DNA from: Betaproteobacteria bacterium
GTDB lineage: Bacteria; Pseudomonadota; Gammaproteobacteria; Burkholderiales; SHXO01
Assembly (NCBI GenBank): GCA_009693245.1
Contig: SHXO01000011.1
Span: 1-51,380 of the forward strand
Length of the DNA: 51,380 bases
Direction of reading: 5' to 3'
Each line of letters starts with the position of its first letter. Position 1 is the stretch's first letter. Below, piece after piece: positions 8,741 to 12,074 of the stretch. Position numbers and translations under genes: made by a program. Under the pieces are notes generated by a model that worked only from the letters and a program-made list of their open reading frames with translations, was not told where the DNA came from and did not search any database.

Positions 8741-11284
8741 GTGTCGAAAATCCTTCTAATCGATCCTAATCCCGCGACCCGGTCCGTGTTGCGAGCACAC
8801 CTCGCCGATGCCGGACATCATGTCGAGGGCGTGGGTGGCCTGCTAGCCGCGCGCGGCGCGCCGGCCAAATTCCAACCTGACGGACTGGTCGTCGACGTTT
8901 GCCATCCCCGTGCAGAGGAATTGTTGCATGGGCTGGAACAACTCCCCGCTACCGAGGGAATTCCCATCGCGATCGTTGCGTTGCCCGAAGACTTCGATTC
9001 TCTCCGGCGCATCGCCCCCGGTAAAAATTACCGCATCCTGGACAAGTCCAGCGACGAATTCGTCCTGGTCGCGCAGATCACAGCGGACTTGGATGGCGCA
9101 AGCGCTTCAGTTGCTTGGGAGCACACAAAGGACGATGCCGGCGAGGCGAAAGAGAACGGCGGGGAAAACGACGAAGACGAAATGGATGGCGAAGAGGACG
9201 ACGAAGGGGACGACGAAGGGCCAGGATCGGTACAAGATGTTTACAGGGAATTAGGTGTCGGCGGGCAACTCAGCCAGCGCGTCCTGCTCTTCTGCGATAT
9301 CCACAGGATGACGGACGTTGTGGCGTCCCTGCCTCGTCCAGAGCAGGCGGAGCTTCATAATGCATTGAAGACCAAGCTCGACCAGTGTGTGAGGAGTCAT
9401 GACGGAAGCCCCATCATGGCGAACATGAATGGATTTTCGGCGTTATTCGAGGGCGCGCAAACAGAGGTGTCCCGTTGTTTTAACGCGGCCATTGAAATGA
9501 TCTACATCGCCCAGCAATTTAGCATCTGGCTCAAGCACCGGCACCCTGGACGCGGAATGCGCGATTTCGCGGTGAGTATCGCCATGGACTTGGGCGATTT
9601 CGATGACGAGGGGAACGGCGGCGGGGAGATCGATCGCGACCTTAAAGAAGCGATTACCTTGGTAGCGAAGTTCGCGGCCGTCGGCGCAAGAAAAGGATGG
9701 GGTATTACGGCGACTTCCAGTGCCATGCGGATAGCCGAGAAAGTTTGTAGCGGCGGGCAGCGCAGCGCGGTTCGGCTGGGCACGCACGGTACGGCCGAGC
9801 TACATGAGGTGGCCGCCGTGGCCATGGAAAGCAAGGCCGGCGAGCGCGTGGCGCGCTCGATGGAAACCAATAGCGCCGTGCTAAGGCGAGAGGCATCGTT
9901 ATCCTCTGGGCCAACCGCAAGCGGCAATACCGGGCTCGATAAGCCATCCAGTACACCATCCAAGGCTCCGGTCCAGCAGGCCTTGGAAGTTACTTCTAAC
10001 CGGACCGAATCGAAGCCACCCTCGCCGGCGGAATCCGAGGGCGTGCCTGACCCGGCAACCGGGCTCTACGTTCCGGGATACCGCTTTGAGCATCCCCTTG
10101 GAAAAGGCGGGATGGCGGAAGTATTTCTTGCTACCCATATTCAGTCTGGAACCGAGCGCGTGCTCAAGATGCTGCCCATCAACGATGGCGAGGAAGAGCA
10201 GCTCCAGCGCTTCATACAAGAATACGCCTTGATCAGCCAGATTCGCGACCCCAACGTGGCGCGTATCCATGAGCAGAGTTTCACCCAATCGCACGCCTAT
10301 ATCGCCATGGAGTATCTCCCTGGAAGCGAACTGGGCGCCATCATGAAACATGGCTTGGACGCAGAGCAGGCGCTGGAGTGCGCCCTAGCCGTTGCACAGG
10401 CGCTGGTGGCGGCGCATGCGAAGGGGATCGCGCACCGCGATCTAAAGCCCGCGAACCTCATGTTACGGGCGGACGGAACGCTAGTCCTGGCTGATTTTGG
10501 CATCGCAAAAGGGCAGTCGGATCTTCTCAACCGCACCGCAAGCGGACATATCGTGGGAAGTCCCTATTATCTAAGCCCCAAACAGGCGGAATCCAAACCC
10601 ACGGATGCGCGTTCGGATTTGTATAGCCTTGGGGTCATGCTTTTTGAGATGCTTACGGGCAAGAAACCCTACCGCGCCGGGAATTTGAGCGACCTCATTC
10701 GCCAGCATGTGGTGGCGCCGATTCCGCGCTTGCCAGAAACTCTCGCCCAATTTCAACCCCTGATTGACCGCTTATTGGCCAAGAAGCCCAGTGATCGCCT
10801 TGCTTCCGCCGAGCTATTGGTCGCCGAATTGAAGGCGCTGCGCAAAGCGCTAGGCCAGCCCCCTGTGAAGGCGGCCGCAACGACTCTAAACCATGTGGCT
10901 GCGCCACGAAGCGCCCCCTCGCGCTCGAAGCCCAAGGATGCCTATAGCGTCGCGGTGATTGGATTTGATGAAACCGAGAAGATTGTTCTAAGCAGCACGC
11001 TTAACCTATCGGTGCGCCGCAAGCAGAGGTTCGTTGAATTTGACGCCAATACCAATCCAGATGGCCGCCCCGACCTCTATCTTGTTGACGCGCGCGACAT
11101 GCTCTACCTGCAAACCATGCTTGCTTCCAACTTGGACCGAGCGGTTCCCACCGTGCTCATCGGAAACTCGGATTTCGGCACGCGCTGGCCAGTGCTGAAA
11201 CGCCCCATTCAGTGGATGAAGATCTTCGAAGCATTCGACCGGGCGCTTACGCAGCATGGGCATACGATTCCCGCGCCTACCTAG
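8741..11284 (+). CDS. Multidomain Ser/Thr protein kinase with receiver-like and cyclase-like domains
   Basis: An 847-residue signalling protein starting at GTG 8741. In order: a receiver-like domain (about 1-120) with LLIDPN, putative acceptor Asp in LVVDVCHP and Lys in RILDKS; an acidic linker (about 130-162); a region resembling class III nucleotide cyclases (about 178-350; LFCDIHRMTDVVASL, ANMNGFSALFEGA) that seems to lack the metal-binding Asp pair and is probably regulatory; a Ser/Pro-rich linker; a complete Hanks-type kinase (about 446-705: GKGGMAEVF, Lys near 476, HRDLKPAN near 566, DFG near 585, GSPYYLSPKQ); and a C-terminal receiver-like module (about 735-840; LYLVDARD, VLKRPIQ). No transmembrane segment is evident, so it is likely cytosolic. 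The stop TAG lies in the CTAG at the edge of the adjacent inverted-repeat element. Confidence 0.85.
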   Translation: MSKILLIDPNPATRSVLRAHLADAGHHVEGVGGLLAARGAPAKFQPDGLVVDVCHPRAEELLHGLEQLPATEGIPIAIVALPEDFDSLRRIAPGKNYRILDKSSDEFVLVAQITADLDGASASVAWEHTKDDAGEAKENGGENDEDEMDGEEDDEGDDEGPGSVQDVYRELGVGGQLSQRVLLFCDIHRMTDVVASLPRPEQAELHNALKTKLDQCVRSHDGSPIMANMNGFSALFEGAQTEVSRCFNAAIEMIYIAQQFSIWLKHRHPGRGMRDFAVSIAMDLGDFDDEGNGGGEIDRDLKEAITLVAKFAAVGARKGWGITATSSAMRIAEKVCSGGQRSAVRLGTHGTAELHEVAAVAMESKAGERVARSMETNSAVLRREASLSSGPTASGNTGLDKPSSTPSKAPVQQALEVTSNRTESKPPSPAESEGVPDPATGLYVPGYRFEHPLGKGGMAEVFLATHIQSGTERVLKMLPINDGEEEQLQRFIQEYALISQIRDPNVARIHEQSFTQSHAYIAMEYLPGSELGAIMKHGLDAEQALECALAVAQALVAAHAKGIAHRDLKPANLMLRADGTLVLADFGIAKGQSDLLNRTASGHIVGSPYYLSPKQAESKPTDARSDLYSLGVMLFEMLTGKKPYRAGNLSDLIRQHVVAPIPRLPETLAQFQPLIDRLLAKKPSDRLASAELLVAELKALRKALGQPPVKAAATTLNHVAAPRSAPSRSKPKDAYSVAVIGFDETEKIVLSSTLNLSVRRKQRFVEFDANTNPDGRPDLYLVDARDMLYLQTMLASNLDRAVPTVLIGNSDFGTRWPVLKRPIQWMKIFEAFDRALTQHGHTIPAPT

Positions 11285-11475
11285 TGTAGTGCTTCACTCT
11301 TAACGGCACAAAAGATAGCGAGAATCGGCCCCATACTTCGTTGCAAATCCTCGCGAGGTGTGCAACCTCGCTGCGGTTTTCGCCTCGTCTGGGACCGATT
11401 TCGCCACTTTTGCCCCAATCCCAGGCCTTCTGATTCTTCAACTTAGGCGCCATTAAGAGCGAAGCACTACACTAG
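11281..11475. mobile_element. Miniature inverted-repeat element (MITE-like) flanked by CTAG
   Basis: Imperfect terminal inverted repeats of 23 bp at 11285-11307 and 11449-11471 match at 21 positions. Both are bordered by CTAG (11281-11284 and 11472-11475), which may be a 4-base target duplication. Inside are further inverted segments (around 11308-11335 against 11389-11414) and a central palindrome (CCTCGCGAGG) within GTTGCA...TGCAAC, so a single strand could fold into one long hairpin. There is no coding capacity. Both flanking convergent genes use the CTAG copies for their TAG stops. A long bidirectional terminator is the alternative. Confidence 0.65.
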
Positions 11476-12074
11476 CAATCCGGATCGCCGGGCGCTGGAG
11501 ATGGATCCGCGACGAAGCGAAATTTCGCGGGGGCATCCTCGGATCTGAGCGAGGCGACCGGGATTAGACCAGGGCCGTATTGCAGGGTGAGCCCTGGGGC
11601 GGTACCTAGTTGGGCCCTATTGAGGGCATCGCTCAATTTCTCGTCATCCAGGCAAGCACCCCGTGTAGTTCGAATCCACGGCAGCACCTCCCCCAGGTCT
11701 TGGCCGCTTACCAATCCGGCCGTGCCATCGAAACCCACCACTAGGTTGCCCTGCTCGTCGATCCAAACGTGATTGGGGGCAAGGATTTCTCCCCCCGTAT
11801 GAGTGAATAGCCGAAGCCCGTCCGGACCCGCGGCGGCTCGTGCTATGTAGGGTAGGTAAGCGATTCGAACGTACACGCGCTGCGGCCCATTCTGGAAATA
11901 CCAGCGTCCCTCGTGGTCGCACGTGTAGTTGCGAGAAATGAACTCGTTGAAACCCGCGTGGTTGATGGGGGCGCCCTTGATGCACCATCGTCCGCGCCGG
12001 TCCAATTCCAGCCATCCATGAACGGATGGAACGTTGGGCCACTTGGCCATGCTCCTTATTACTGTTTCATCCAT
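11472..12074 (-). CDS. Conserved hypothetical protein (about 200 aa)
   Basis: A 200-residue protein with no signal peptide or membrane segment, beginning MDETVIRSMAKWPNVP. It contains many aromatic and Gly residues (GWLELDRRGRWCIKG, HEGRWYFQNGPQRVYV, TRGACLDDEKL), suggesting a compact beta-rich fold. The family resembles an uncharacterised group seen in betaproteobacteria, but I cannot assign a function or a reliable family number. The stop codon is provided by the CTAG at the right edge of the neighbouring inverted-repeat element; only the last codon or two could have been altered by that insertion. Confidence 0.7.
   Translation of the reverse strand: MDETVIRSMAKWPNVPSVHGWLELDRRGRWCIKGAPINHAGFNEFISRNYTCDHEGRWYFQNGPQRVYVRIAYLPYIARAAAGPDGLRLFTHTGGEILAPNHVWIDEQGNLVVGFDGTAGLVSGQDLGEVLPWIRTTRGACLDDEKLSDALNRAQLGTAPGLTLQYGPGLIPVASLRSEDAPAKFRFVADPSPAPGDPDC

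Follow-up and report, generated by a model that had tools for sequence, protein, structure and literature searches.

The insertion sequences closest to the element described here are those of the IS630 family, which duplicate TA at their target according to PMC2170065. IS630 from Shigella sonnei and ISY100 have this duplication in common with our element, which differs from both in lacking a transposase gene and in carrying a conserved hairpin core. Some bacterial repeats resemble it in other respects, as described in PMC3049150. RUP of Streptococcus pneumoniae is also a short repeat, its ends resemble those of IS630-Spn1, and it is thought to be moved in trans; however, its sequence is different and it is enriched between convergent genes, whereas our family is not by the count presented here. 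BOX, from the same species, reportedly supplies the stop of an overlapping gene at its 3' end in 36 cases, but the BOX stop lies inside the repeat, while in our element we read the stop as the duplicated TA and a terminal G. Nezha of cyanobacteria is a MITE for which mobilization by ISNpu3-like elements has been proposed, and it differs from our element in its hosts.

Here, we analyzed 51,380 nucleotides of a Betaproteobacteria bacterium (contig SHXO01000011.1), referred to as the window, in which a palindromic mini-element lies between a protein kinase gene and a DUF2944 gene. This element is an IS630-type MITE of a family that is widespread in its bacterial order and undescribed in the sources that we searched. 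We demonstrate several copies of it, an IS630 relationship of its tips, a CTAG context, and empty sites with a single CTAG for two sister copies. Very probably, it is a non-autonomous element of the IS630/Tc1-mariner type that inserted at the TA of a CTAG shared by the ends of the kinase and DUF2944 genes, with both stop codons rebuilt in the process.

A palindromic element whose borders hold the stop codons of two convergent genes

The border CTAGs, read directly from the sequence, occupy 11281-11284 on the left and 11472-11475 on the right. Sequence and folding both confirm the palindromic mini-element with CTAG borders that the initial annotation had placed at 11281-11475. The terminal inverted repeats are present as claimed but are longer than the 23 bp reported, with arms of 34 nt that are 85% complementary (Table 1). 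The element folds with z scores of -9.8 on the plus strand and -10.9 on the minus strand, and 0 of 200 shuffles folded as well on either strand. An ORF scan found no reading frame of at least 60 aa inside it, and in both directions its tips carry stops in every reading frame within 23 nt. No Rfam covariance model matched the window at the gathering score, and relaxing the threshold to E up to 1 across 18 loci gave a single match, to nos_TCE, at 8-58 of locus L033 and outside the element.

Table 1. Coordinates of the mini-element, its parts, and the adjoining genes in the window
Feature	Position	Strand	Basis and remarks
Protein kinase gene (PF00069)	8741..11284	+	Stop TAG 11282-11284, formed by TA and the element's first G
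Left terminal inverted repeat arm, border CTAG included	11281..11314	+	Inverted-repeat comparison
Putative left copy of the duplicated TA target	11282..11283		Sequence, TA model, IS630 biology
Mini-element proper under the TA model	11284..11472		189 bp; first base G, last base C; IS630-type MITE without ORF; tips shared with autonomous IS630 elements
Conserved covarying hairpin core, covariance model R1	11306..11413	+	Covariance model match
Right terminal inverted repeat arm, border CTAG included	11442..11475	-	Inverted-repeat comparison
DUF2944 gene (PF11161)	11472..12074	-	Stop TAG 11474-11472, formed by TA and the element's last base
Putative right copy of the duplicated TA target	11473..11474		Sequence, TA model, IS630 biology

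The stop codons of both neighbors lie within the border CTAGs, as had been observed initially. Since the IS630 family duplicates TA, each stop can be read as the duplicated TA followed by the terminal G of the element. Before insertion, the kinase and DUF2944 genes would probably have met tail to tail at one CTAG. An IS630 transposase, not seen in this genome's own assembly, would have been supplied in trans, and cut-and-paste transposition into the TA of that CTAG would have duplicated the TA. As the first base of the element is G whichever strand is read, the TA together with this G would then re-create TAG at both ends, giving each gene a stop of its own and leaving neither protein changed.

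Consistent with this, the insertion appears to have left both neighboring proteins as they were before. The initial annotation had proposed as much, and the proposal is backed by the C terminus of the DUF2944 protein, which ends in Asp-Cys, as Asp/Glu-Cys also ends 7 of 8 other homologues (ends found by pattern among the 11 loci read). One homologue, from a genome of the same genus that has no match to the hairpin core (G002), ends in TGC TAG and thus holds a single CTAG, with no kinase seen beside it, and comes closest to suggesting an empty site for the window locus; the remaining seven homologue ends use TGA or TAA as the stop. DUF2944 homologues were present in 15 of 40 other genomes, and, in the listed part of 11 loci inspected by eye, no adjoining kinase was seen. 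The C terminus of the kinase was present in 5 of 199 other genomes, none of them (0) in the same genus. The two genes were seen side by side in no other genome searched, and no empty site of the window locus was found among them.

The tips match complete IS630-family elements

The initial annotation had suggested an IS5-type origin with a 4-bp duplication and had proposed a search for an autonomous insertion sequence with matching ends. Such elements were found, but they are complete IS630-family elements of about 1.16 kb. One of them, L158, has two facing tips, TAGTGTAGTGCTTCG, 1165 bp apart, which enclose one IS630 transposase (NF033545; score 274.9 bits, cut-off 100, E 8.7e-82). The first 14 bp of the window tips are identical to those of L158 at both ends, and 15 bp are identical at the right end. 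Among the matches listed, five more tip pairs, 1162-1166 bp apart, enclose a transposase (58-76% identical), in one case split in two pieces. The transposase domain of these autonomous relatives is DDE_3. The ISNpu3-like elements of Nezha are also related to IS630.

The scan with a 15-bp tip returned at least 120 stretches; since a 15-mer also matches by chance in a large collection, matches in unrelated phyla may be fortuitous. Among the matches listed, an IS630 coding sequence starts less than 260 bp inside 30 of 124 tips, and all 30 are preceded by C, as are 102 of the 124 overall. One genome (G072) holds an apparently frame-broken IS630 with these tips together with mini copies. The hairpin core was present in 15 of 32 genomes with an L158-like transposase, compared to 77 of 367 without one (p 0.002, a guide only since the genomes are related). 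No IS630 transposase was detected in the window's own genome with either PF13358 (E 0.001) or the L158 protein (E 1e-30), and the copies there therefore look like orphans, at least in an assembly of 130 contigs. PF13358 was found in 3 of 7 relatives with copies, one of these under the cut-off.

We considered a different element as the source, one with an rve_3 transposase in genome G008 and tips TAGTGTCCAGAAA, and rejected it: its protein scores best to IS481/IS3, and its tips diverge from ours after the first bases. At two loci of this genome (L069 and L071, contig C9), the rve_3 element is bordered by TA, and its best NCBIfam scores, to IS481 and IS3, are below the cut-off. The tips at these loci resemble IS630 tips in their first bases even though the transposase family differs.

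The open-access literature that we searched contained nothing joining miniature inverted-repeat elements, IS630, and Burkholderiales, and nothing naming this family. There, oligonucleotides from the tip and core matched a single paper, on plant microsatellites.

Copies occur at unrelated sites within and between genomes

A search for further copies, also proposed initially, yielded three full copies in the own genome (assembly of 3.0 Mb in 130 contigs, 97% complete), on contigs C11 (the window), C98, and C115. Relative to the window copy, the others show 96% and 83% identity and have unrelated flanks, and each of the three is bordered by CTAG at both ends. Searching this genome for tips with at most 3 mismatches recovered the six tips of these copies and one lone, more divergent tip. 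Beyond the own genome, which is counted in both totals, matches were found in 8 of 60 genomes of a first set, and a covariance model of the core (built from 19 sequences and applied with strict filters to at most nine candidates per genome) matched in 92 of 399 genomes of the order. The occurrence of copies at unrelated sites and in other genomes of the order bears out the earlier view that the mini-element is mobile. No match was found in the plasmids and phages searched.

To survey the copies, we picked 80 by hand from the top of the core-match list, leaving out matches near contig starts. One was dropped because no ends could be placed (L292) and seven because they fell under the score cut-off (L241, L243, L247, L289, L290, L309, and L312). 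The remaining 72 and the three own copies gave 75 copies with both ends located, from 21 genomes.

The very stable fold on both strands and the strong covariation of the core would suit a fixed terminator or regulatory hairpin that belongs to the kinase/DUF2944 pair and does not move, but we regard this as extremely unlikely given that other copies occupy unrelated sites and that sister copies have empty sites. The initial annotation had also raised the idea of a bidirectional terminator. A consensus scan of 11100-11650 found no terminator-like site on which this idea, or the fixed hairpin, could rest, with 0 intrinsic terminators against 0.6 in shuffles (stems of up to 20 pairs and loops of 3-8).

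Probable duplication of TA within CTAG, and empty sites of sister copies

TA is kept on both sides in 61 of the 75 copies. Of these 61, 46 have C and G as outer bases and 15 have other bases there; G and C are the inner bases of 60, a figure biased upward by our end-finder, which rewarded TAGTGT tips and leans to TA tips. The 4-base flanks are clearly unequal in eight copies (TTAG/CTAG in 4, CTAG/CTAA in 3, and TTAG/CTAA in 1), and GTAG/CTAC flanks in four copies are probably due to misplaced ends. Because complete elements with these tips encode an IS630-family transposase, duplication of TA within CTAG is indicated. Tenzen and Ohtsubo, in 1991, are said to have described a preference for TA in CTAG, to judge from their title.

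An IS5-type MITE that duplicates the 4-bp CTAG would also account for the CTAG on both sides of 46 of the 75 copies, and a precedent exists in MITEPsy1, which is tabulated as 'IS5?' and is reported to duplicate CTAG or YTAA (PMC3189936). The flanks of the window copy, CTAG/CTAG, are compatible with both kinds of duplication, and the two empty sites described below can equally be read as CTAG duplications. The eight copies with unequal flanks and the IS630 transposase of complete elements with the same tips nonetheless make this origin very improbable. Assignment to IS5 would call for equal 4-bp CTAG/YTAR duplications together with an IS5 relative; the relatives that the tip scan returned are IS630. 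The duplicated unit is thus more likely TA than CTAG, which for the window copy we infer.

Empty sites were found for two sister copies. The first (L286), in genome G010, lies between convergent genes, one of which has its stop at the border. In relative G403, the flanks of this copy, 95% and 93% identical, are joined at exactly one CTAG, which supports the earlier proposal that such copies insert at a single CTAG. Genomes G402 and G406 also have the flanks joined without the element, with the CTAG itself altered. The second (L285) lies within the stop of a gene with a GNAT domain and is present in G010 and G402, whereas G403, G406, and G409 have a single CTAG and the gene ends in CTAA in G410 and G412. 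The protein ends in QKKL both in the occupied gene and in G403. The outer bases of the occupied copy are T and A, unlike the CTAG of its relatives, which fits either a TA or a 4-bp duplication; either the target was TTAA or the flanks changed.

By eye, a second palindromic element at about 1694-1860 of L012 (G047, contig C61), with tips TAGGAGCCTGTCGGACTT, appears to lie directly against the right border of a copy, with one CTAG common to both. Since insertion makes a new CTAG, each event would provide a fresh target.

Border TAGs serve as stops for many neighbors, and no preference for convergent genes was found

With genes called by our own gene caller, the neighbors of the 75 copies are arranged in tandem in 48, convergently in 14, and divergently in 11, with 2 not determined. 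The initial annotation had favored convergent genes as a niche for insertion, but we found no convergent enrichment (14 of 73 copies compared to 55 of 316 gene spacers). The border TAG is the stop of a neighbor in 25 of 75 copies, or at 26 of 77 gene ends that face a copy, while among 110 control CTAG sites, all intergenic and distant from any copy, 23 are stops. The difference has a p value of 0.06 for all copies and of 0.003 for the 46 CTAG/CTAG copies, 21 of which are at a stop; both values are guides only, since the copies are related. Pfam domains were present in 18 of the 20 proteins scanned out of the 26 that end at a border TAG. In a second set, a frame of at least 150 codons ends at 21 of the 92 tips that had sufficient outer flank, compared to 89 of 813 other CTAG sites (p 0.002), a control that includes sites within genes. 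Only rarely do both stops arise from one CTAG, as in the window (1 of 75 copies and 1 of 110 free sites). None of the copies (0 of 75) lies inside a gene, which is partly so by construction and on which we do not rely, because a gene split by a copy would emerge from gene calling as two pieces.

These observations offer a concrete sequence-level reason why entry into a stop codon may be free of cost: the duplicated TA and the element's own first base spell TAG whichever strand is read. The ends of genes, stops common to two genes among them, would then become safe harbors for insertion.

The copy on contig C115 of the own genome (L003, G000 C115:2173-2397) also lies between convergent genes. 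The minus-strand gene has its stop at the border TAG, and the plus-strand frame reads CTA GTG TAG across the border, with its stop inside the tip.

One hairpin core is carried by different IS630 tips

The core occurs under more than one type of tip, and this modularity of tip and core was the least expected part of our results. Tip A, TAGTGTAGTGCTTC, or near variants of it flank an IS630 subtype with 71-86% identity to L158 (L351, L352, and L355), and in L352 the tip is exact at either end. Tip B, TAGTGTCCTGAGTC, is present at one end of an IS630 element that is 48% identical (L362, G328), with one change at the other end, and a fragment in L344 supports its pairing with IS630. Seven viral contigs with tip B contained no mini-element and no full insertion sequence pair; one of them, L344, runs into an IS630-like end.

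The same core is carried by tip A in 30 copies, by tip B in 32, and by other tips in 13. A core tree that keeps the A copies apart from the B copies was rejected (p-AU 0.0005, with 108 columns, many unresolved forks, and tip labels assigned by strict criteria). Conversely, 21 mini-elements bearing tip A on one or both ends, hand-picked among the matches listed, group into 10 clusters by their interiors. Of these 21 interiors, 18 fold better than shuffles (z -2.6 or lower), while three do not. One covarying core thus occurs with tips from two or more IS630 subtypes, and a single tip is found around ten unrelated interiors, most of them palindromic.

A broader reading is that of a modular system, in which IS630 subtypes re-tip the same core, the same tips carry many palindromes, and IS630 transposases spread a wide class of the hairpins that lie between genes in Proteobacteria. 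We consider the case for it evenly balanced. Such dispersal would have gone largely unnoticed because insertion into a CTAG stop codon rebuilds the stop on both strands.

In the core alignment of 19 copies, both sides had changed in 19 of 26 pairs; 82 cells were of this kind, compared to a shuffled mean of 26.9, and 94% of cells were paired. When 71 distinct copies were aligned to the core model, 1721 of 1846 cells were Watson-Crick. These paired changes, and the carriage of the core by different tips, would fit an element that is mobile but is kept because its core benefits the host through termination, RNA stability, or a bound protein. We regard this as a possible but doubtful addition to the IS630-type MITE reading, with which it is compatible. 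Template switching can keep a palindrome paired even in the absence of selection, so the symmetry of the core may stem from either process. The core is also found in only the 92 of 399 genomes noted above, under strict filters. Finally, the mismatches lack a clear strand bias: in the plus reading, A-C mismatches outnumber G-U by 59 to 20, but by only 25 to 19 once two pairs are set aside, and since these two pairs carry 34 of the 59 A-C mismatches, we make no claim of an RNA strand bias.

A wide family in which one hairpin occurs under several IS630 tip types provides a tractable test of whether cargo is selected by the transposon, the host, or neither. In one tip-A element of 333 bp (3221-3553 of L144), the loop of the core hairpin appears to hold a further G+C-rich palindromic insert, and the interior folds with a z score of -12.3.
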